From Cladochytrium replicatum (taxonomy: Eukaryota; Chytridiomycota; Chytridiomycetes; Cladochytriales; Cladochytriaceae), in assembly GCA_025526935.1 (NCBI GenBank), contig JAHLKD010000051.1, positions 186,001-250,000 of the forward strand: a stretch of 64,000 bases of DNA, given 5' to 3'. Both the position numbers and the translations under genes were made by a program. This document shows, in pieces, positions 6,447 to 56,210 of this stretch. The notes under the pieces were generated by a model. It saw nothing but the letters and a program-made list of their open reading frames with translations, made no database searches and had not been told where the DNA came from. How positions within the stretch are numbered: the first letter of the stretch is position 1; every line of letters starts with the position of its first letter.

Positions 6447-6495
6447 TATAACACGCCCGTCCCTCCACGACACCCTCAGCACCCCCACAGAAAAC

Positions 6496-7623
6496 ATGCG
6501 CTCCTCAGTCTCTTTCGCCGCTGCTGCCCTCGCCTGCTTGGCTGCTGTTGTTTCTGCAACTGACTACTCAAGGTATTTGGTCTGCAATTATTGGTTTTGC
6601 AATTGCTAAGATCTATGACATCCGCTCAGCAACTCGTACGGCATTTCCGACTGGCAAACTTGCCACCCCGGAAAGGACTCATGCGCCAACTCCAACTCAA
6701 AGTGCTGCATTGCTAAGGCTGACAAGCACTCCGGAAAGTACACCTGCCGTCCAGCTGGAAAGGACTGCGATTCTTCTGACTACTACGACAACACGTACTC
6801 CGGTGACTACTACGACGACTCGTACTCCGGTGACTACTACGACGACTCTTACTCTGGCGACTACTACGATGACTCCTACTCCGGAGACTACTACGACGAT
6901 TCTTACTCGGGCGACTCGTACGGCGATACGTCCAGCACCTACTACGAACCTGATTCATCTGGCTACTACGGCGCTCGTGCAAAGGGTCGTCACGTTGCCC
7001 ACGCAAAGGGCGCTAGCCCTCGTCACCCTGCAAGGGCAAGGTTTGCGAAAGGAACTCGCCCGCACGCTGGTCGCTCTCCAGCTCGCCACGGTTTGACTCA
7101 CTCGAACACTTATGATGATTACTACGGAGTTGCTGACTGGAAGACTTGCCACCCCTCGTCTGAAACTTGCTCGAACCCCAGCGCCAAGTGCTGCATTGCC
7201 AAGGCTGACAAGTCTAGCGGAAAGTACACCTGCCGTCCCCACGGCCAGGACTGCGACAGCTCCTACGACTCTTATGGATCCACCTACGATGACTCGTACT
7301 CCTCTGACTACTACGATGACTCGTACTCCTCTGACTACTACGATGATTCGTACTCCTCTGACTACTACGATGATTCGTACTCCGGCGACTACTACGATGA
7401 TTCTTACTCTGGCGACTACTACGATGACTCATACGGCTCTACCTCCAGCACGTACGAGGAGCCTTCGAACTCCGGCTACTACGGTGCCCGTGCCAAAGGT
7501 AACCGTAACCACGCGCGCCCGGCTGGCCGCGGCATTCCCAACGCTCGCCATGCTGGTAACCGTGCAAACCCTGCCGGTGCTGCCCCGGCACAGAACCCCG
7601 CGGGTGCTGCTCCCAAGAACTAA
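6496..7623 (+). CDS. Secreted two-module cysteine-rich protein with Tyr/Asp/Ser tandem repeats
   Basis: Two exons (6496-6572, 6630-7623) give 356 residues. The N-terminus is a clear signal peptide (hydrophobic Ala/Leu/Val core, about residues 5-21). The mature protein is an internal duplication. Each half has a six-cysteine module with identical spacing C-x6-C-x6-CC-x12-C-x6-C, opened by DW-x-TCHP and containing AKADK-x-SGKYTCRP. Each module is followed by 5-6 copies of a nine-residue repeat (YYDDSYSGD and variants), then a Ser/Thr/Glu linker (about SSTYEEP), GYYGARAKG, and a basic Arg/His/Ala-rich tail. The spacing matches the C-C-CC-C-C framework of cystine-knot miniproteins. The acidic Tyr-rich tracts next to basic tails suggest a self-associating wall, adhesive or matrix protein; this is inference. 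Bases of the repeats are a tandem 27-mer DNA repeat. Confidence 0.85.
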
Positions 7624-32728: not shown

Positions 32729-35700
32729 TCAAAGGCTTGTTAAACCATGTGTAAGAAGCCAAAAGGATATTGCTTGAACAACATTCTCAATATGATCTTT
32801 CTGGAGCTTGTTCTCTTGTGTATCTCTTGAGACTGCATAAAGATTGAGTGTTTGACTATTTAAAAGTTCACTGTAGAATTGTTTGTCAACCTGAAGCGCA
32901 TTGTTTGACTTTTGCAAGCCTAATTGCTCCCTGTTATTTTGTGGGTCAAACAAGCTTATCCTAGGTGACTGATCTGAGAGCCAGTCTCCTACAGAATGCT
33001 TTGCAATTAATGATAACAAGCCAAAACCTGCAAGTGATTGCTCATTTTCTATTGCCAAAATGGTGTCATTTTCATGAGGGATCTTGCTGCTGGCAGTTAC
33101 ATGAACCATGAAATTGGTATCTTGTGGAGAAAATATGAATAAGTGCCTTCTATGTTTGCTCTTGGCAGAGATACTCTCCAAAGTTGATTTGTGTTCTTCG
33201 TTAACTTCTCTCGCAAGAGTACCAAAGTATGATCTCAGAAAATCAAATATCTTGATTGCAGGTAAGCGAGGATGTTTGAGAATAGTCCTAATTTTGGTGT
33301 CCATTATTGTTATCTGCTGAGATATTGGCTCAATTTTCTCAAGAAACAATTCAACCCAATCCGCTGATCCTGTCTCTGCACCATAGATACGGCTTGCTGC
33401 TAGAAAGTCAGGGTCACTATAGTTTCCACTTAATAAGACTCCAGCTGCAGGCTCTTGGGTTTTGTTATTGTGTCCATCCCACAGAAATAATTGATTCCAC
33501 ATACTGTCTCGACTATAGTAACCAACAGCCTGAAAGGAATCAATACAATATACTATACTATTTAGATTCCTCTCACCTTGTTAATGAGAAGTTGAATCAT
33601 CTTCTCAGCATATGGCACAAGGAGGTCTTTCTCTGATTCTATTCTGAAGCTCTTTGGCTGACTATGGATAGGAGAGACAAGAACAGTGTAGCAGATAGTC
33701 ATGTCTTTGTTAGCATAACTAACATCTGCTGGGCTGGAAGAAGATAAACCTGAAGCGAATACTTTCTGATAATTACTTCTTGAAATATGATCAGAGTAAA
33801 CAACAAGTGTTCTCCTTAATTCGATATACTCATTTGCATCTGAAGAGAAGATAGGATATGTTGAGTTTAAGTAACAGCCAATAGTGTCTTCCCCTAAAGG
33901 CAGTGGCTCAAATCCATATAATCGGGGATTTTTGATAATGTATTGAAATACTGGTTGAGAAATGCTCTGTGAAAGTGAGCCACATTGACCAGACTGTGCT
34001 GCTGATTTTGTTTTGAAGGGTTGATGATGTTGAGGACAAAGACTGGTGAAAGCCTTTATACAATTTAAAACGCTGAATCCATTCATTGGTGTCACTGAAT
34101 TATTCAAAATAGATTGATACTGGCGGACATGAAAGTCATATACAACTAATTAACTTCAGTATTGTATCGTACATAAATCAAAACTACTTACAAGTATCAA
34201 GATCCACCAAGTCAACGAAAACATCAATTTCTGCCCGAGTTGGTTCACTCCTGTGTTTGATACTCTCACCTGCAATCTGAGATGGAGCTAAAAACAAATT
34301 TGCACTGATACAATTGTGGCTGATTCCTATCTGGAGTACCAGAATATATTTGTCAAGCTGTTTTCTAAAGTACAAGGTTTCTGTTGCAATGTTGAAATTA
34401 CGATTAACAATATATGCTGGCCTGTAATTCTGGTCATTCAATTTGCCTTCAAGTTTGTCTCTTGACAATAATATGAAACCATTTGCTTGTAACTCATGCA
34501 CATATTGGTTATAAAAGATCTGAAATAGCTGCAAATACCATTTCTCACCATGGAGAGAATTAATTAGACCTTTACTCTCCTCAACAACATTTCCTGCTGA
34601 AGATGTGCTATTCTCAATTATTACTTTATCTAATTTTTCAAGTAGTTCAGAACTTTGATATAATTTTTCAAGCAGTTCAGAGCTTTGATCTACTCCATTT
34701 TCAAAATTAAAGACAAACGGATATTGCCTTGACATAATAAGCTGAACTGATGTTAAATACTTTAGAGCTATGTCTCTGGAGTCAAGAGAAGCCTTCAATG
34801 TCAAAGAAAGAAGATCAGCATGTTGCTGTACAGCATTTTGAACGGTCATACCTGAAAAGAAAGTTTACTTCGATATGCATCCACATTCAAAGAAAGATAA
34901 TGGTGAATAAATTCGACAGCACTCACAAACATCTTGTCAAAAGTTGGAGAGTACATTATTTGCCTTGCCCTCTTGCTATTTCTTTCCCCAGTGATAAATT
35001 TATTGAAAAGGTTTTCCCATAGGAGCTCAATAGGATTACTGTTCAATAAGATAGTTCTGCTAGTTCCATATTGCAAGAACTTATGTTCAATGAAATGTTT
35101 TCTGGTGTTATGCCAATTGATAAGATTGATAAACTTCTTGGCTAACACATTCTTTAATGTAGATTCAACATTATACACCATCAAGCAGACATTTGAATTT
35201 ACAATTGAGAAAGATACAAAACAGTTTTTCTGATGGTCTTTTAATTCTGTATCTGGTTGGCGAGTCTGTGCTTGACTAAGTGCATGGGGTTGACTGCTTT
35301 CTTTCATTGAATCAGAACTAACATACTTCTCTAAGTTTTGAAAACCAATCCACATTACATAGCTTTCTTGTGAAGAATTTTCAACATGAAAATTATATGC
35401 TGGTGATTGGGTATTTGACATATTTAGACTAGTTCTTTCACCAATATTATTTTGCATTATCTGGATGATTATTGGGGAGTTTGGAGACAAAATGTGGGTT
35501 GTGAAAAGCTCAGATATGCACAGTAGCATGAAATCCCTTGATATCCATTCAGGAATAGAAATTGGTATTAATGCAGAATATGTAGAAGAATTATTAGTGT
35601 TCACTTTGTGAGCAAGAATTTCAGAGCATTCATGGTGGAAATTGGTCAACGCATTGTTGATTTTATCATTTTTGAAGGAATAGAATGGAACTCTATTCTG

Positions 35701-38700
35701 TATATAATCTGATGAATCTGCCCTATGTATATCAATTTCTTTATCTATGTGGACTTGATTGCTAAAGAATTTGTCCAAGTTTTGCATAGCAGCCTCGAGA
35801 AAGTAATTTGAAATACTTTGACAAAAATTTCTGTTAAATTGCTGAATCAAATTGTCAACAACTATATTTCCATGAATCCAGACCTAAATTTTAATTTTAT
35901 ATCTGACGAACATGTTATCATTTGAATATTCAGATACCTGGAGAATAATAAAGCATTTTGAGTGTAATTGATTCTCTTTGTCCTGGAAGATGTTGTAACT
36001 TTCATTCTCCATACATTTAAAAGCTGAAATTGACAGACATTCCTCCAGATGTTGTCCTGATGGGATCTCAGGGCACAATTGATTATCTTCTGATTCAGAT
36101 TCAATAACATTGCCATGAATATCATGAGCTGAAAGAGTTACAACACACATTCCACTGCCAAGAAATGCTTCCAAAGGGCTTGGTGTTGTTGTTGTATTGC
36201 AGCAGTAAAAGAAGCAATATTCACTATGATTTAATCTATTCTCATTATTTCTATATCAGTTTACAAAATAAGCATTGTACAAATGTTTTTTTCAACTGAG
36301 TACCTTATGTTGGAGAAATTTACACTCTCAACTCCAATAGATTTAAAATTTTCCTGCAGATTGTCATTGATGTCACCACATGGTAATGGCTGAACAAACC
36401 CAGAACTTTCTGCTAAGAAAGTACACTTACATCGGCAATCAAATAATCATCATAGCTACATACCTGACATGTTTGAAGAAAATTTGGTGATTTGTTGCAT
36501 CATATTTTGACGCAAAAGTGACAAAAAGCAGATTGGTGACTTGATAGATATAGGCAGAGCAAACTTGATTGTAACTTTTGAGCTTTTCCTGGGCCTCCAA
36601 AATGAGAATGCAGCTTGATCAAATTGTGGGGGGATCTTTGAAATTGGTAGCACAAAATCAATGTCCTGACTCAAAAGTCGGCCTGAGGCATTCCTGATCA
36701 AAATTGTACTGACTATGTGAAGAGTTAACTCAAAAAGGGTGCTCTCAATAAGCTCAACTAGGCTTTTAGTTGATTGTAAATCTGGTTTATCTACACCATA
36801 AACCTTTAACATTAACACGTTATCTATACTGTTAGTATTCTTAAAAGTTAATTGTGGAGCTGCCTGAGTAGACTGATTCCGAGGCGTTAAACTATTTAAT
36901 ACAGCACTTGGCCTGAGATTTGGCGTTTCAAAAGGTTTCTTGTAGTTTGAAGCATTCTCAACTGAAGGAGAGTTTAAGGGAGACATTGCTGATACTGAGA
37001 AATCAGGAGTATAGCCACCACTATTGAAAGGTTGTGGTTCATTGGTTCCAATACCACCAGTCATGTTATTTACAGAATCTATAGTATTGGATGGGAAGAG
37101 ACCAAAGTAATATATAGATGATTGAGTTGCTGTAACAAACATGTTCTCCCTATTGATAATTGATAAAGACTGAAGTTCTCTAGAAATTGAAATCAGAGCT
37201 TGTGAATAGTTTATTCTTGGATGGAGAAGAAATTGATGATGGTAAACAGCAGGACAAGAAAACTCGCCACTTCCAAAAGGGATTCCTGATATGTCTTCTG
37301 TTTGGGTTTCCAGACTATCTTTATGTGATGGAATCAAATATATACTAGCCACAATCAGAAAAGAGGTAGGAAAAAGCAACTTCATATTTACCTTGCTTCG
37401 CGAGACTCACATAAGTCTTTGAGTAGAATCACTTGATTGACACGCTCCAAACAAAGAACAATAGATTTGACAACTTCTGATATCAGCGAAGATCTTCTTG
37501 ACTTGTCAAAATACTGAGAAAATAACGAAATACTGGCACAACCCTCATTTATTCGGATCACTAACCAAAATTCCTGAACATCTTCACTGAGAAAATAGTT
37601 ACTGGTATGAAGTTCACTTTGGCGAACAGTATTTTGATCAACTATTAAACCAAGTCCAATATCAGGTATCAGACTGCTGCTACTAGTTTGACCAACCGAT
37701 TTCAGGCTAAAATCTATCCCAAGACCCTCGAAATTCTCATTCGGGGTAAGATTTTGAGCATGTTCAATTTGCTGTCTCTCAGAAGAGTCAAATAAAAGTG
37801 GAGGGTGTGTCACACAATAATATGAATTATTTATCTCCTTAAAATTCAGCAGAGGCAAAACTGCATTGTTGGTTGAATAAGTAGGTTGCAAATCCGACTT
37901 CACACCATCTACATTTATAAATTTCTTAAATTCACACAAAAATATATTTGGTCCTTCTTCATTGTCTTCCACAAATTTCAATTCAACTTTTTGATACTCA
38001 CTATATTTCTCAGTTTCTTCCACTCTATTTACAATGTCAACACCATGTCTGTTCGAAAGAGTACTGTCAACAAAATCTAATATTCCACCTGCATTCTCAT
38101 ACGGAGCAAGTAGTGACAGACCCTTCAAAATGGCATTCTCCAATCTAAGTTGAAGAGACTTTTTCAGAGACTTGATATTTGGATTTCCCATTGTTACTGC
38201 CTCAGGAGCTAAATCTTCTGAATTTGGTCCATTGCTCAAATATAAATATTGCACATTCAATTTTGTTTGGATCCCAAAAGTATTCCCAATTGGGTTGAAT
38301 TGTTTCAATCTATCATCATTTTCATTCAACGAATCTAAAATATCTTCACTGATAACTTCAAATGTATTCAGAATTCCTGAACCACCAGCCATTTTCTGTT
38401 CCTTTTTGCTCTCAGACCTGAAAAAACAATCAGTCTGTATGAAACATGGAGTATCTGCAAAATCAAAAATAGCAGCTATTTTGTCTGATTCTACACCATT
38501 CACAATAGATTTATTCATATCAGACTGATATGACGGCAAAGTTGGGAAGTAGATATTATCAATATCATTGGAATGATCAAATTTTCCGACTAAATAAGGT
38601 GAAACTGAAGTAAATGCAACTGCTAAGACATCATTAAGAATATTTTCTGCAATGAAATCCTCCAATACTGAATTTTTGCTTGTCCGAAGCTTCAAAGTTA

Positions 38701-41700
38701 GCAGTGTTCTCACACTGATATATGTAGTGATGTCTATATCAAACAAATGTTTGCTTTTCAAAAAGGACATGGTCTGCTTAAATTCAGTGACATCAACTGC
38801 ATTTTGACTAAGTAAAGCTGCATAAATTGTTTTGCTAAATACCACATTAAAAAGGTTGCTGATTTCTGACAAAATCTGCTTAGAAAACTTTGAAACATGA
38901 AGCAGACTCTCAACATCAGTCGTGCTCTCATGAAGCTTGATCTTAATAGACAACCTCTGGTTATTGGCATGTCCACTACTTGTGTGAAATGTAGAATATG
39001 ATACATCTACTTCTGCTGCACTTAAAGTTTCTAAACCAGGGCCCTCAGCCAAAACAAATTCTGTGTTTTGAATTTTGTAATTTTGATACATATCAATTAA
39101 TAGTGGACAGAATAGCATATTCTCTCTTCTATTATTCTGATTGTCATTTCTCTCATGATATATATGAATCTGGTCAAGTAACTTATAATTTACTCTGGAG
39201 CATTCAAACAGAGTCAATGTGACATAATTGCGCTTTTCTTGAAGTGTAGATGGATTCTCCTTTTGTACTCCCAGGCCAGCAATTTGGCTGAGGTTATAAT
39301 TTGAGAGAATTATAAGAATAAAATTTTCAGCATTGATGTGTTTAATATAGCAATGAGGATGATTGATTAAGTCCAGCTCATTGATTTCACCATAAAACTT
39401 GGAATTGTGGAATCCTGCAGCCAAAATTTCACTAATTGCTAGCATTAAATCTGTTTGTTCAGCTTCACCATCTGTCACAATACAATTATCTGAAAACTTT
39501 TGCAATTCTTGTCGGAAAAACTTGTGTGCAACTATAGAACAAAGCACATCAGATTCCATTAAATTCTGATTAGCAAGATTCTCTTTAGATACATCTGGAA
39601 GTGCATTTAGCGAGTCTGCAGATTCCAAGTGAGTTTCCAGAGCTATCTCATCTGACATCACTATATTCAAAACTGATTTCACTTTATCCTGCTGAGAATC
39701 ATTAGCTCTCGCGTCATCTTTAGTTATTGACATTTTTTTAAGCTGAATTTGTTCAGATGCGTCTGAAATAAATTTTATCAGAAAAAGTGAATTTTCTCAG
39801 AATTCTAACTGTACCTCTGCCACCTCCTCTCTCTACAAAAGAGACTGTGTTAAATGATGATGGCAACCTGTAAGCTGTTACAGCAAATGGAGAAGTGAAC
39901 AAAACTGCCTGGAGGTCAAATTGTGGATTTACTAGTGCACAGTTAATCTTCAGATGTGCATTGGCAGGCAATTCAACTTTATCATGACAAGGATTTGTTA
40001 TGTTTGACACCAAATAATCAAAAGTTTGCAGCATTTTGGAAATATGAATATCTTTTGAAAATATCGATTTAACTAATTGATTTTCTCCTTGCAAAGCATG
40101 CATTTGCTCCTCAAAACTGTCTCCAGTAATATCGTTGTTGTTGGCTTGTCTTTTGAGCTCAATATTAGTGCTACTCTCATCTGCAAGATCTATTCCCAAG
40201 AAAGGTTCTGTCCACAGCTCTGTCACTAGACTTTTCGTCAAATTGTGTTTGTACAAAACATATTGAACAATGGATGATTTCCTATGTTTAAGCTCCTGCC
40301 CTTTGATAGTCATATCTGAATTGAACTGAAAATCCTTAGCCATGGTGACACAATGGTCATCTTCAGAAATAGGATAATATCCTTCAAGTATTCGTTGGTA
40401 ATAGATCAGGTCATACATTGTATGATAAGTATCAATTGAATTTTTAGTTATGACTAATATGGAACAATTAGAAATGTGACTGAATCAAAACATAGCATGT
40501 ACCTTTAGTGACATTCTCCTCTTGCCCAAAATGAAAAAGACTGGCAGTATCAGTCAACCAAACCCATCTGAAATTTTTCATATATGATCTTAACACAGCA
40601 CTTGAAACATAATGCTGATCTATATCTCGTAATAGCTTTGCAATCGTCCTTTGGGTTTCTGGCAATCTATCAGAATTATCTTTCTTTATTTCTGGAGTGA
40701 ATGGAATATTGGGGAAAGGAAGTATATCAGCTGTTGTAAGTCCAATTTTAGGTACTGGCAGTAATAAACGGCGCAGATTCATTTGATTCCTCAAATTCTC
40801 TGTTCTGTACTTAACAACAAATCTACGAAGAGCTTTAATGTACACACCAACAGTCGATTGACTTTGACCTATTCTTTCTTTAATCATTATTCTTCACCTA
40901 CATATATATGTACTTACTTGGAGATTTGTTATTGGCTGCACCAGTCAATAATGCCAAATCCTTTCTCAAATTGTTCACAGTAACTCTTCTTGCATCCAGT
41001 GACACATTGTAGAAAGCTAACTGCAGTGTATATAAAAAGTCTGTTTCAGGAATTACACTGAGGATACAAAATCCATTATATACAGCAAATTCAGGCAGCT
41101 CTGTCCCTCTTTTTAAATCTGTCTTATTTTCAGAAGAGCTCGCATTTTGTATTGGCTGAGTTGAAAAGAAGCGTTGAAGCAGCAGTGGGTTCTGGTCTGA
41201 AATAAAGCGGATATAAATGAACTCATCAAGTGCAAAGCTACACCATGAATCCCAAATGAACAGTTGAACCTGAGTTAATGCAGAGTGTGGTAATTTGAGT
41301 TTGATGGAATAATTCAGATTGTAGATCTGAGCATTTTCTTGACCATTGTTTCGCTGATTTGCATTATAACATCTGAGTACTATATCAGTATTTGATGTGA
41401 AAACTTTGGTGATAGGGGAGTAGAGCATGTTGTGAAGCAAGAAATGCCAGTAATTGTTCTCTGACACACGTGTCAGTTCTGCATGAAGTTTCTCCCAGAC
41501 AGACATTGAAGGATTTTCTCCTTTTGCTCGAAGTCTGAACAATGCTGAAACCATCTTCTGTGTGCTTCTGGGAATGTCATTTACTGCATCTTTGGAATTA
41601 AACAAAGAAAAGTCACGAAGTTGCTTTTCAACAAGTGCTATGCTTTTCAAGTATTGATGAAGCTTCTTGAGTTTATTGTCCATCATTTGTACTGTGATGC

Positions 41701-43762
41701 CTTTCATGTCAACATTTTGTGCATCTGTGAACTTCATTGCAAAATTCAAGTGGGCCAGAACATTAATTTCTATTAACGCTGGTTTCAGAATAACTTGTGA
41801 TATTGGTGTCCCTGAATAGAGTTTGATAGCAGACTGTGTTGACAACAGAGGTCGAGTAGATTCAATTGGCCTTTCAATGTGGAATGTGTACTCAATCGTG
41901 ACATTGTGAAGCCATTCTAGGGAGAAGACAATCTCAATTCTATCAGGTGCTCCTGGAATTCGATCAACAAATATGCTGCTTAATGTAAATCCATCTAAAA
42001 GCCTTGCAGTGGCTAAAGAGTTCAGACTGGTAACAGGCAGATTGGGTTCACGTGCTTGACATAATACTTTATCTAGAATTGGTGGTTTGCTGGTTGGTAG
42101 CCATGGAAAGTTGTCTTCTTCAATACAACCAAAGACATTAGCAGGGTTTGCTACAACCAGCCTTGCGCGAGGCAGGTCCACATGCCGCTCATGTGAACCA
42201 GAATGAACCAACTGCATTTGCTGAATTAAATTCTTGGATATCAATTTTTCTCGAAAGAGAAAATGAATATGGTAGAAGTTTGGTGGATTGTTTGCTTTTA
42301 AATTTGATTCCTCAGATTCATCTTCAAGATACTTGCAGTCATCTGCATACAAAAATGTCCCAAATGTTGCAACTGCAATAAAACGAAGAAACTCATTGTC
42401 AGGGACATGTCCGTAGTTGGCATAAGGCACAAATCCATCACTTGATCCAATCTGAACAACTGTGAGTGTCACATTCATGGTGGCAATTTTCATACAGAGA
42501 CCACGATACTTTGTTTCACCAGACCCAGTTCCAGCTGATACTCCATCTGTTACTAACACCAACGCAGGCATTGTATCCTTTGGTAGCAGATCTAATGCGA
42601 GCAACGCGTATTCAAGCGAATCATACGTGCTCCCTGCACTGTTATGAGATTTAATCAATTGCACTGGTTCATCAGTCAATAAATCAGAAGGATTTCCAAT
42701 AGATGAATGGATAATTGGTTCAGATTGTGATGGGGAGATTGAGACTGATTTGTCATGCCTTCGAGTTGCAACAAGCTCATTCTCATACTTTGTCAAACCA
42801 TCATATAGCTTCTCAATAACAAAGGCAAAGTTATCCTGATTCACTACCACATCTTGGAAAATGACACGCATTGGAAACTTCTGAGTGAATTTGGATGCCT
42901 CAATGTTTGATCCTCTGAAAAATGATGTGCTTCCGCACTCAGCAATGACGGTTACATGGAGTTCTGGGTCAACCTATACACAAGTCGTGAGGTTCTCAAT
43001 AACATATGGCGTGATCTCCTTACTGTAGTTGGTTTTGATGAATTTGGAAGGGTAAACTTGCGAGAAATGCCGTCCAATATTTTACAAACGCTGCGTGTCA
43101 AATATTCAGTGAAATAAGTAAAAGATTGGAGGTTCGGAAGTCTCACGTTTCAAAAGCGGCCGAAAACAATACTTTAGCCCTCCCAGTACTGTCGACAGTT
43201 GACATGGACGTGCTAAGATCGATAATAAAAACCATGCGATACTTCTCGGCGACGGAGAGAATTCTAGTTTGCGGGGATATGACCACGTTGTTCACCTCTC
43301 CGATAGGGGGATGATCTGCCATGATGTTAAAACATTGACGACAGAAGCTTGGGAGATAAGCTCCACCTTTGATGAATTCGCTTTCGGAAACCCTCCAGTG
43401 CGGGCGATCCAGCTCCCACGGGAGGAACTCGTGAATAGGTGATGCATCCGCAATGTACACGTCGGGATCCTGCACGCATGTGATATTGGTGACAACCGAG
43501 TGGGTCAAAGAGACTTTCCACGTACGTTATGATTCTTCAAAGAAAGAGGACACATGATGTGTTTCAACAACCACTTGTCGTATTCGCACCGGTTGAACCA
43601 GAATGCATTCTTGATTATCAAGACAAGCGACCGCAACTCCTGCACATCCATTCAGCACTCGTTTTCCCGATACTCTCCAAAATTATGAACCTGTGCTGGC
43701 TCAGACATCGACGCGCGGCTTCGTCGCTTCACTTTGACTGGCGGCTGAGGACGGTCGGACAT
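32729..43762 (-). CDS. SZT2: SZT2 homologue, KICSTOR complex scaffold
   Basis: Fifteen exons on the minus strand, joined in phase, give about 3426 residues (human SZT2 is 3433). Exons: 43691-43762, 43526-43639, 43147-43469, 43024-43090, 40918-42973, 40503-40877, 39815-40453, 37392-39762, 36464-37344, 36304-36412, 35938-36250, 34927-35883 (donor uncertain), 34192-34825 (acceptor uncertain), 33577-34145, 32729-33529. The N-terminal vWA-like region matches SZT2: YRMVFIIDLSTSMSTVD, ALLALDLLPKDTMPALVLVT, GHVPDNEFLRFIAVATFG. The C-terminal half contains VYDFHVRQY. SZT2 scaffolds KICSTOR, which tethers GATOR1 to lysosomes and restrains TORC1 when amino acids are scarce. The gene is AT-rich from exon 5 onward and exons are unusually long for this window. 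No frame damage was seen. Confidence 0.9.
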
Positions 43763-51587: not shown

Positions 51588-54500
51588 CAAAAATCAATGC
51601 CGCGCCGCCCGCCGCACCCCCCGCTGTGCCCCCTGATGGACTTTCTGGTGTCACAGTGATTTTTTGAGGCCCGTTCTTGCCCCCGTGCCTCCTCTGTTGA
51701 AAATTCCGCTCCACACCATCCATTCTCCGCTCCTGCCTCTCCAATTCACTGGGCTGATGATGTGAATATGGGGGAGGATGAAAATGCGAATCACGTGACT
51801 TCAGATCACATGACCGATGCGCCAAAAGACCTGCTGAACATGAATTGCCCCGTGGTCGCTCCCATTCTCGTTCTCGGTCACATCTGCCCGGTGTCCGGGT
51901 TCTTGCTGCTGTGGCTGCTCCTTCGAGTGTTGCATCTCTGGCCGATCTCCGTGTCGTTCTCACTCAGATGCAATCTGTTTGTGCAACCTTTGATCCGTTG
52001 GCGATGCTGGATCCTATGCTTGCACATTTGCCGAGGGACACTCCTGCTGAATTTTTTAGTGTTTGTCGTGATATGGCCGAGGATCTGGTGGGTCGCTTTG
52101 GGAGGCCGCTGCCTTCACCTTCACCTCCGGTTGCCCCTGTCTCCCGCCATGATGATGTGGCTGCGCCTGTGTGCCTTCCCCCTAGACAACTGCATGGTAA
52201 TCCTCCAATTCAGGACGATCTTGGGAACTCTGGTGCTCCTGGCCCTCGCCCCCCGTCTAGTCGACCTGCCCCATGTGGACCTCGTGGTCCACGCACTTAT
52301 GCCGCTGCTGCTGCCAATGCCCGTGCCCGTGTGCTTGAGAGTCTCCCCACACTGAGTGCTGAATCTCGTACAGAAGCTGTCAGGACTGCCCTTGCTGGTC
52401 GTGACCCCACTTCGAATGTCAGCCTTTGTGGCCCTTGGCCTGTCGTATTCTATCCTCCAACCTCTCCGCTGCTGGACTCCCCACCTGCTGATCGTCAGGC
52501 CCGTGTGGATGATTTGACCACTGTGTACATCAAGGACATCATGAGACAGCAGCTCGGCTTTGTGCGGACCATGCTGAGGGCTCTCTTGGGCGATGAGGTG
52601 GTGCGTGGTATCCGCTACATCAGTTTTGTTGGTCGCAACATTGCTTCCTTTATCTGTATTCGCTCAACCGCAATTGCTCTCCGTGCGCACTTCTCCACCC
52701 AGGAAGCTTCCACTGACGAATCAAACCCTGACTTTCTTCGCTGAGCCTCTACTCTGATTAGTGTTCGAGTTGGTACCTTCAATTGTCGAAATTTGAGCTT
52801 TGGAGTTCTTGATTCACTGTTTCGTTTTATGCGCGCAAATCACATTGTTTTTCTGCCCCTGACTGAAACACACCTTTTTCCTTTAGACCCGCTGCCTTCC
52901 CCAGATTTGATTTTTGACACTCGTTTTTCTCCTGGGTTATCGGGTACACGACGGGGCTGGTGTGGGAGTCTTGATCAATCGCAGTCTTTGTAGAGCTTCT
53001 GATTTCTGTCTCGTTTCTAGTTATGGTGGCACCTCTCTATGGTTTACATTTCGTGGGCTTTTGGTTGGAGGGTATTATTTGCCTCCGTCTGGTATTGCTC
53101 AGGACCCCTTCCTTGAAGAGTTTATTGCTTCACTTCCTCAACATGTCCCGTCGTCTCCGTGCCCTGTTCTTTTGTTGGGCGATTTCAATGCCCGTTTTTT
53201 AGCTACTGGTGATCATTCTTCAAATCGTAGGGGTAGGTTGTTTGAGCAATTTATTTCTTCCGCTAGTTCTCTCTATTAAGCACCCTTCCTGTCATAACCC
53301 CGCATTTTCTTCTCGCAATGGTGACTCCATTATCGATTTGTTGTTTGTCAATCCTCTGCTTCAATGTGATCCTATTTCTTACATAGTTCATAGTCGTCTA
53401 GCCGACGGCGAGTTTATGCCTTGGGCTTCTGACCATTTTCCAGGTTACAGCTGTTTTTTCTTTTGCTCCTCCCAATGCCAGCAGCTCCCTCTGCTGCACC
53501 CCCCCACAAGCGCTGGGCTGCTCATCTGTTGCGTGAACCTGCTGTCTTTCAAGCAATGGAGGAAGTGGGACATTTGTTTTTTGATCCCACCCTTGCTGAT
53601 GTCAATGCTGCGCTCAGTCCAATTTTAGAAGCTCCCGCCTTTGCCCAAATGTCTGTGGATGTTGCACAGGGATGTATTGACTCTGCATTGGATATTATTT
53701 TGTCCTTTGTTACTTCGTGTGCTGCTTGTGTCATTGGTACCCCAGTTTAGTTCGCTGTCGCCCTGCCCTGCCATTGTTGCCGCCGCATTTAGTGGCCTTG
53801 CGACGGAGCTACTTACTTGCTCATAAGCACTATTTAGCTGTTTCTTCCTGTGATGATCCTGATCCTGTTTTAGTTGAGTATTGCCGCTTGGAGCGTGACC
53901 GGCTATTGCGTGAGCGTGTCAAAGCTTTTCGTACTTGGTCCTCTCTCAGCGAGCTCGAGAGGCTTCTGGCGACAATATGTTTAGTTCTTCTCCTAGTTCT
54001 TTAACCGAGGTTAGCAAAGTTCTTTCCACCGCGCGTAGGTGTCATCAACGGCGCTCAGCTGCAAGTGGTTTATTGTCTGATCCTGCCTCTTTATCTCATT
54101 ATCGCAATCACTTTGCCTCTGTTTATCAGACTCAGTTTGCACAATCCTCTGCCAGTGCAGAACACGTTCGTCTACATGCGCTGAATGATTCTGTGTCAGT
54201 TAGTGTTAGTGACTTTGTTTGTGCTATTCGTTCTTCCCCAAACAACTCTGCTCCTGGCCCAAACCATATTCCAGCTGAGTTATTTAAGCCGTTAGCTTCT
54301 GATGTTGCTATCCTTTTTGTTCAACTTTCAAACGCTATTTTCCGTTCAGGTTTGTCGCCCTCTGCATGGAATGCTGGCTTGTTGTTACCTGTTTGGAAGA
54401 ATAAGGGCTCCATTGGTGATATTAGTCAGTACCGCCCCATTACTTTAACCAATGTTGATAGAAAAATCTTTGAGCGTACCCTGCTTCCTATGCTTGTAGC

Positions 54501-56210
54501 TCATGTTGGTAAACTTGATCCCGCCCAAGCTGGTTTCCAGGCCAATCGTTCAGGTGTTGAGTGTGTTTTTGCATTAGATGGTACCCTTCGACGGGCTTCC
54601 TGCACTGCTCTGCCTTATTGTGTTACTTTCTTAGATATTAAAGCAGCGTATGATACTGTGCATAGGCCTCTTTTGTGGGAACGTCTTCGTCAATTTCCCA
54701 GAATTCCAAACCGTTTGATCTCTGTTTTGATGAGTATGTTTGATCGTTGTTCTTCTCAGGTTGTTATAGAGAATCGTTCTTCTGATTTGTTTTCGCTTCC
54801 ACGAGGTCTTTTTCAAGGTTCTGTTTTGTCTCCGTTCTTGTACTCAGTTTTCATCAATCCTTTAGCACAGCTCCTTCGTCGTGAATCCTCTCATCTTGCT
54901 AGGTTTTCTTATAACACTCCTGTTTTCAATTCGTTGTTTTTTGCTGATGACATAGCTTTGTTTTCCGCCACCCCTGAGCAAGCCCAGCGTGCATTATTTG
55001 TGAAGATTTTGCTTTAGCTTCTCATTTTGTGTTTTCACCTTCAAAGTGTGCTGTGTTATCTTCTCAACGGTTACCCACCCCCTTGAAGCTTCATGGCTCT
55101 GCCCTCCCTGTAGTGGTTTCATTTAGATACCTTGGTCAGTATTTTACTATTGAAGGGTTTGATCTTGCTGCAACTATTGATCATCGCTTAAGAAAGCTCG
55201 TGCCTCATTGTATCTTTTTGCACCTTATGTCTCGTACTTTGGTGGGTCTGCTCCTCGTGTTGCCAGGTTGTTGTTTTTGTCTTTTATTAGACCTTCACTT
55301 GAGTTTGGTTTAGCACTTATTCGGCCTTCCACTGCTCAGCTTCAGGTACTCGAGCGTTTTTGTTATCATGCACTGTGTCATCTGTTTTCGCTAGCCCATA
55401 CCACTTCGCGTGTTGGTTTGTTGCTGTTAGTGCAAATTCCTACTTTGAGTTCAGGCTGAAGTACCTTCAGGCACGTATGTTTGCTCGCTGGTCTAGTGAT
55501 TCCAGCCCTCTGTTACCAGCTGCTGTGTTGCAATTCTATTGGTCATCTCCAGTCGGTTATGGTTCATCTCCTTATTTTTCCGCTTGTCACAATGATCTCA
55601 TTGTTCCTATGCCTGTTGTGCCCCCACTTCATCCGTTGATGTTGCATTTTCAGTCTTTAGCTGTTGCGCATTATGGACCAATTGCAGTTTCGTTTGCCCC
55701 TGTCCGCAATTTGAAACTTCGCCACCCTTTGTTGCTACCCCCACACCAACATCTCCCAACAGTATGTCTTCGTTTGTTCCTGCTATATCGGCTTGGCCGC
55801 CTGTTTCCAAACCCCCGACCTTATTGTAGGAACTGTCATGATGCTCCTGAAGTGTCGCGTGCCCATGTCTCTGTGTGTCTACATTTGCGTGCTAGTTTGT
55901 CTGCTAGGTTTGATTTGGGGCCGCCTGACGATCCCCGCCTACCTCTTGACATTGCAATTGATATGCTTTCACCACCGCCCTTTTATCCTTTGCCTGCTTT
56001 TTCCCAGTGGGTTCTTGTTCTTCGTGCACTTAACCGCATTTGGTCAAACTGTCTTGTTAGTTTTGTCTCCAGCTCCTGATTCTATATTGTCTGCTTTTGT
56101 TGATTTGGATATGCCTTAGTGTTTTGAAACATTTTACTTTTCCTACGGCTCGCACGGCTCCCCATGTGCTGCCAATTTACGTGTATTTTTACACTTGTAT
56201 TTGGATTTTG
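51585..56210 (+). mobile_element. LINE copy B, near full length, mutated
   Basis: ORF1 occupies 51845-52744 (299 residues, Arg/Ser-rich start then a Pro-rich nucleic-acid-binding-like protein). The ORF2 region starts about 52755 with an APE-type endonuclease: VGTFNCRNLS, LTETHL, LLLGDFNARF, SIIDLLFVN and ASDHFP, in different frames because of indels. The reverse transcriptase follows in one long frame from 53935 (VWKNKGSIGDISQYRPITLT, FLDIKAAYDTVHRPLL, LPRGLFQGSVLSPFLYSVF, FFADDIALF). A C-terminal CRNCHDAPEVSRAHVSVC zinc-knuckle-like motif lies near 55835-55890. All RT Asp residues are intact, but ORF2 needs several frameshifts, so the copy is likely dead. The 3' end stops at 56210 without the poly(A) seen in copy A. 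Confidence 0.85.

Follow-up and report, generated by a model that had tools for sequence, protein, structure and literature searches.

An undescribed cysteine-rich module shared by tyrosine/aspartate-repeat proteins and predicted GH5-like enzymes in an apparently flagellated fungus

INTRODUCTION

The sticking of zoospores and cysts and the hardening of walls in early-diverging fungi are, to our knowledge, poorly understood at the protein level. The locus studied here raises the question of what is done at the cell surface by a protein for which an earlier note had described two cystine-knot-like modules, each followed by Tyr/Asp-rich nonapeptide repeats and a basic tail. The gene lies in a stretch of 64,000 nucleotides (the window), which corresponds to C51:186001-250000 of a 50.5-Mb, 198-contig assembly, and the same assembly was searched for paralogs. 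The window holds IFT122, a ciliary protein, and 22 stretches of the genome match Chitin_synth_1. The organism is apparently a flagellated fungus, as judged from these two features, which also fit the earlier guess of a zoosporic source.

RESULTS

The window gene and its product

The gene has two exons on the + strand (window 6496 to 7623; Table 1), and the spliced product has 356 amino acids. These coordinates had been given before and are correct once the intron is taken out: the unspliced frame contains two stops, and the reading is open only after removal of the 57 bases GTATTT...GCTCAG. The N-terminus resembles a signal peptide, with a hydrophobic core followed by V-S-A, and, judged from the sequence, the protein may well be secreted as proposed. 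Behind the putative signal peptide, a set of module, acidic block, and basic tract occurs twice, the second basic tract forming the tail. The two modules, here called DW modules, are 67% identical and have the same cysteine gaps of 6-6-0-12-6 (C-x6-C-x6-CC-x12-C-x6-C), in agreement with the earlier description.

Five nonamers of the DYYDDSYSG type follow module 1 (aa 76 to 120) and five follow module 2 (aa 252 to 296), the second run being preceded by a partial sixth. Tandem Repeats Finder gave scores of 196 and 218 with a period of 27. Tyr makes up 28 to 29% of the acidic blocks and stands on average at every third to fourth position; Ile, Leu, Val, and Met are absent from these blocks. The two repeat blocks hold 18 and 20 acidic residues and 0 and 1 Lys/Arg. 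The alternation of acidic Tyr-rich and basic tracts was confirmed, with net charges of −18 and +11 in the first half and −19 and +7 in the second. No dibasic site is present anywhere in the protein. The paralog on contig C1 also has a TATAA near the place matching that in Table 1, although the rest of that flank has diverged.

Table 1. Features of the window gene (positions are those of the window)
Feature	Position	Strand	Basis or measure
TATAA-like element	6447..6451	+	about 45 bases before ATG; consensus match only
Exon 1: start codon, putative signal peptide (6496-6558), first mature residues	6496..6572	+	translation; matching exon in C1 paralog
Intron, 57 bases, GT-AG, CTAAG near 3' end	6573..6629	+	intron at this place in models of 6/8 close genes
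Exon 2, including stop codon	6630..7623	+	
DW module 1 (ISDWQTC...KDCD), six cysteines	6643..6771	+	dN/dS 0.016 vs C1 paralog
Acidic Tyr/Asp repeat block 1, five nonapeptides	6772..6966	+	19 Tyr in 65, net −18
Basic tract 1 (GARAKGRH...)	6967..7095	+	net +11, five His
DW module 2 (VADWKTC...QDCD), six cysteines	7129..7257	+	dN/dS 0.027 vs C1 paralog
Acidic Tyr/Asp repeat block 2, five nonapeptides plus one partial	7258..7491	+	22 Tyr in 78, net −19
Basic Ala/Pro/Arg-rich C-terminal tract	7492..7620	+	net +7

Close paralogs and selection

The assembly contains at least eight close genes, counting the window gene. The C1 paralog is 89% identical to it and keeps the whole layout, with the intron at the same position and its sequence diverged. 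Because intron position and layout have been kept despite a dS of 0.91, the layout of the window gene is not due to chance. The same pair gave a dN of 0.066 and an overall dN/dS of 0.072; by region, the ratio was lowest in modules 1 and 2 (Table 1), 0.04 to 0.05 in the repeat blocks, a value which depends on the repeat alignment, about 0.15 in the basic tracts (maximum, 0.155), and 0.21 in the signal peptide. The pair is under purifying selection, with the strongest constraint in the modules.

The six further close genes are located at C36:135.6k, C36:14.9k, C24:79k, C51:341k, C45:146k, and C51:155k. According to the first-exon models, six of the eight genes have an intron directly before module 1, and in the remaining two this intron is missing and another seems to precede module 2. 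A module pair is present in the window gene, the C1 paralog, C36:135.6k, and C51:155k and a single module in the four others, and the gaps 6-6-0-12-6 are found in 13 of 13 close modules. Matches to the regular nonapeptide were confined to the window gene and the C1 paralog (5/5 stretches, E <= 0.001), the other six genes having looser Tyr/Asp blocks. In these six, a KR site lies after the signal peptide and ahead of the module; it is absent from the window gene and C1.

In the module tree, which is based on a short alignment with long branches and includes four enzyme rows with wrong junction residues, the M1-type copies of all eight genes and of C26 form a supported group (95/99); the M2 copies fall outside it and are left without a resolved group of their own against M1. 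Since the M1 copies of all genes are grouped apart from M2, the internal duplication, which had been read from the layout of a single gene, most likely predates the split into gene copies. It is older than the window gene, as is also indicated by the module pair in four genes.

Outside the repeats, C/G-ending codons of six residues account for 66 of 73 in the window gene versus 168 of 277 in IFT122 (p = 3e-7), and the same measure gave 57 of 72 for clathrin. This bias is suggestive of an abundant protein. Cys-rich secreted proteins restricted to one lineage are frequent in fungi; the genes described here form a genuine, conserved family of several copies, apparently secreted, and carry a module not described before.

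DW modules on enzymes and other carriers

What is new here is that the DW module also occurs outside the Tyr/Asp proteins, on predicted GH5-like enzymes and on one other secreted-looking protein. The genome contains at least 15 DW loci, namely, the eight close genes, C26, a broken copy on C10, four enzyme loci, and C12:369k. For the weak matches at C12, C34, and C47, spliced models were built with GT-AG junctions picked to give the cysteine pattern, so the junction spacing of the distant modules is partly imposed by this requirement. DWxTC and CC-x12-C are kept in all eight distant spliced modules. Three of them have the full 6-6-0-12-6 spacing and four have 5-9-0-12, in which a further intron precedes the last cysteine, six residues away, the extra junction being one choice among several possible for three of these four; the last cysteine was not found in the eighth. 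A hidden Markov model built from the 13 close modules scored the eight at 26.4 to 55.8 bits, and the best cysteine-fixed shuffle of each module, at 8.0 to 22.1 bits, was under its own true score in all eight cases (250 shuffles made per module, 232 to 248 scored). An intron follows the first cysteine or stands near GK in seven of the eight, and both introns are present in five.

The modules precede GH5-like enzymes, with two at C12:325k, one at C34:111k, one at C47:271k, and two at C47:216k. The domain at C47:216k passes PF00150 (GH5) with 24.8 bits against a cut-off of 23.5, and its best PDB sequence match is a GH5 mannanase (E = 0.0049). A C34 fragment passes Glyco_hydro_cc (22.0 against 21; the query had one mistyped residue) and C12:325k stays under both cut-offs, which makes two of three scanned enzyme loci over a Pfam glycoside hydrolase cut-off; the enzyme part of C47:271k was called GH5-like by eye. 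WSC segments of 34.4 and 51.9 bits (cut-off, 27.8) lie 3' of the C34 enzyme, a position which does not imply the same transcript. The enzyme-linked DW copies adjoin a signal-like N-terminus or stand in tandem, some with T-, P-, or G/S-rich linkers, and such placement is a common layout of carbohydrate-binding modules.

At C12:369k, a secreted-looking domain with no Pfam match is followed by a Gly/Ser-rich linker and two DW modules, and at C26:10k, a divergent DW module adjoins a divergent copy of the four-cysteine hairpin described below. The C26-type module gene has another copy at C10:690155-690307 (L017), which is interrupted by a stop in frame and is probably a pseudogene. The eukaryotic search for the module covered the window's own genome; against viral contigs and prokaryote genome contigs, the DW alignment gave 14 and 12 pattern matches, respectively, none of which was confirmed by tblastn.

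Fold and family searches

AlphaFold2 modeled the DW module with one beta hairpin at a mean pLDDT of 63. Foldseek gave no significant match to this model (E of 5.8 or worse); three of the six insignificant matches are small disulfide-rich venom peptides, and VIA-align likewise gave no significant match among the six. By sequence, the best E value for module 1 in the PDB was 0.69, and the DW profile had no match there. NCBIfam returned one irrelevant row (E = 0.83), and Pfam gave no significant match for 15 DW modules (E up to 10). The earlier opinion that the module belongs to no described family therefore agrees with Pfam, NCBIfam, and PDB sequences, and titles and abstract openings in the open-access PMC literature yielded no description of the DW/Tyr-Asp family.

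Single members matched inhibitor-knot (ICK) families insignificantly (Toxin_35, E = 0.02; Agouti, E = 0.2), and these matches were discounted because the irrelevant baculovirus LEF-10 scores E = 0.012 in the same scan. Matches to Diedel and DUF5637 were likewise insignificant. The match to disintegrin (PF00200; 17.1 bits, E = 0.01), far under the 35.1-bit cut-off, was read as convergence.

Of the suggested knottin-like fold, the cysteine order C-C-CC-C-C is there, but no significant fold or sequence match accompanies it and the model has a low pLDDT. A knottin fold, in which disulfides I-IV, II-V, and III-VI would thread a ring, is plausible for the module. The module contains one nearly invariant Trp and lacks an established sugar-binding face, which, with the poor model, speaks against polysaccharide binding.

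A four-cysteine helical hairpin

Five of the eight close genes end with a second unnamed module (C-x10-C...C-x10-C), which was not matched at the window gene, C1, or C51:155k. AlphaFold2 predicted a helical hairpin (mean pLDDT, 89). Against the PDB, it had no significant match, the hairpin profile giving two chance-level rows, and the single copy tested had no Pfam match. The hairpin forms tandem arrays, with basic spacers, in proteins rich in Tyr and Glu (C9:209k, C32:295k, C116:75k, and C19:538k; L026-L029). Hairpin pairs also end pepsin-like aspartic proteases at C9:500k and C24:109k (L038, L039), the former with 84.9 bits to PF00026 and the latter assigned without that scan; the C9:500k protease also carries Tyr/Asp/Ser repeats ahead of the protease domain. 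Because the hairpin arrays couple Tyr with Glu rather than Asp, they hint that Tyr matters as well as charge.

Tyrosinases and other features of the genome and window

Tyrosinase (PF00264) was found over the cut-off in 22 stretches of the genome, at about 14 places. Two of the three tyrosinase genes read have a signal-like N-terminus (L090, L091), the third being cut off. None of the three bears a DW module or Tyr/Asp repeat, as judged by visual inspection of frames at least 60 residues long, and the link between the family and tyrosinases is therefore one at the genome level only. On contig C53 (67000-101100), five tyrosinase-family places stand within about 34 kb.

Elsewhere in the window, an AT-rich island with long open frames lies on the − strand at 32729 to 42973. 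GC is 0.34 to 0.40 over 32 to 42 kb versus mostly 0.45 to 0.53 elsewhere in the window, and GC3 is 0.35 and 0.29 in the two frames measured. The only frame scanned there (40901 to 42973) had no Pfam match; one frame of the island may resemble SZT2. A reverse transcriptase frame (PF00078), probably from a retroelement, lies on the + strand at 53914 to 55014, within a strong negative AT skew at about 50 to 58 kb.

DISCUSSION

We tentatively suggest, giving the proposal somewhat less than an even chance, that the window gene encodes a secreted structural protein of the wall, sheath, or holdfast of a zoosporic fungus, in which the DW modules are anchors and the tracts between them condense and are cured through tyrosine. 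A module found both on carbohydrate-active enzymes and on surface proteins without enzymatic function usually serves in binding, and since the DW module is shared by both kinds of protein, it is read as an anchor analogous to CBM18. As is characteristic of carbohydrate-binding modules, it stands as a separate module on carbohydrate-active enzymes (four GH5-like loci), and its presence there suggests that it may bind polysaccharide and would hold the protein on the wall or on a polysaccharide surface. Condensation of neighbouring chains by complex coacervation, which would be driven by the −18/−19 and +11/+7 tracts, is favoured because neighbouring tracts carry opposite net charge. Secreted tyrosinases or peroxidases would then oxidize Tyr to DOPA or dityrosine, forming cross-links with the Lys/His-bearing basic tracts and so setting the layer. 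Such quinone or dityrosine curing is possible because Tyr is frequent, Lys and His are present in the basic tracts, and the genome has about 14 tyrosinase places; by analogy with cured proteins, the repeats may be cross-linked through Tyr. The self-assembly or surface adhesion considered earlier has only indirect support, from the DW modules on GH5-like enzymes and from the many tyrosinase matches.

A more far-reaching proposal, which we consider rather unlikely as a whole, is that DW represents an unrecorded carbohydrate-binding or docking family of zoosporic fungi that serves as a common address tag. It would bring hydrolases to the wall and anchor a two-charge, tyrosinase-set Tyr/Asp cement, the chytrid counterpart of mussel glue; together with the four-cysteine hairpin of Tyr-rich proteins and aspartic proteases, it would make up an extracellular assembly kit.

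The presence of the module on enzymes could also mean that DW is a dockerin-like protein-protein docking module, by which enzymes and repeat proteins are held on a shared scaffold, and not a sugar-binding one. Small Cys-rich modules, single or in tandem, at enzyme ends with low-complexity linkers are the layout of the fungal dockerins of anaerobic chytrids. However, there was no CBM_10 match among 15 modules (Pfam, E up to 10, HMMER filters on), and glycan binding is suggested by the WSC segments that lie 3' of the C34 enzyme; docking is in our view unlikely.

We regard it as improbable that the protein acts after secretion as a knottin-type effector or inhibitor, or as an antimicrobial precursor, with the module as its active part and the repeats as spacers removed by proteolysis. 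The C-C-CC-C-C cysteine order, the insignificant resemblance to ICK families, and the KR site, which is of the Kex2 type, in six of the eight close genes would suit such a precursor, but the window gene lacks any dibasic site and the module is fused to GH5-like enzymes. The modules also change very slowly (dN/dS of 0.016 to 0.027), unlike in an arms race, and the repeats and basic tracts are constrained too (0.04 to 0.155).

The acidic residues of the repeat blocks, nearly free of Lys/Arg, could instead mark a metal- or mineral-binding matrix protein, with Asp and Tyr binding calcium or iron and the modules merely forming stable ends. Such a protein requires neither the regular Tyr content nor the paired basic tracts, and the pairing of Tyr with Glu in the hairpin arrays, which does not imply kinship of the repeats, hints at a role of Tyr besides charge; this explanation is no better than improbable. 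It is very improbable that the protein is a precursor from which the repeats are excised at dibasic sites as the cores of ribosomal cyclic peptides, since, although secreted-looking and built of repeated Tyr-containing units, it has no dibasic site, and we know of no place for six-cysteine modules in such precursors.

The reading as an anchored, tyrosine-cured structural protein matters because a small module on both GH5-like enzymes and tyrosine-rich repeat proteins gives a concrete and cheap way into binding and cross-linking. If the module does bind polysaccharide and the repeats do cross-link, the family would add a binding domain not yet catalogued, together with a biological adhesive that works under water and has a defined sequence.

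Comparison with known systems

According to one report, CBM18 is expanded in Batrachochytrium dendrobatidis, where it occurs on tyrosinase-like, deacetylase-like, and enzyme-free lectin-like proteins and follows the pattern X3CGX7CX4CCSX4CX6CX3C (PMC3569864). DW resembles the CBM18/hevein module in being short and Cys-rich, with a CC pair, and in its presence on both enzymes and enzyme-free proteins. It differs in its gaps of 6-6-0-12-6 (13/13 close modules), without CG or CCS. Because the spacing differs, none of the 15 DW modules scanned matches PF00187, and the genome's own CBM18 stand at other places than the DW modules, DW is not CBM18.

With knottins and other ICK proteins, DW shares the cysteine order, seen in both window modules, and the predicted beta hairpin, but it has twelve residues between Cys IV and Cys V and lacks a significant sequence or fold match. 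Its likeness to disintegrin (PF00200) is a local CRPxG..CD resemblance. In anaerobic gut fungi, hydrolases carry dockerins, which are small and rich in Cys and stand singly or in tandem. DW is likewise a small Cys-rich module, single or in tandem, on hydrolases; unlike the dockerins (CBM_10), it has no PF02013 match and is also found on Tyr-rich non-enzymatic proteins.

Mussel and sandcastle-worm glues were compared as DOPA/dityrosine-cured structural proteins. The window protein differs from these in that its Cys-rich modules are shared with enzymes, and no sequence kinship is claimed. Trematode eggshells are typically DOPA-cross-linked, yet one species showed no DOPA, and the reaction of DOPA with Lys/His is one of two proposed routes (PMC11727788). 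What the window protein has in common with such cured proteins is its Tyr-rich repeats, its separate acidic and basic tracts, and the tyrosinase matches in its genome.
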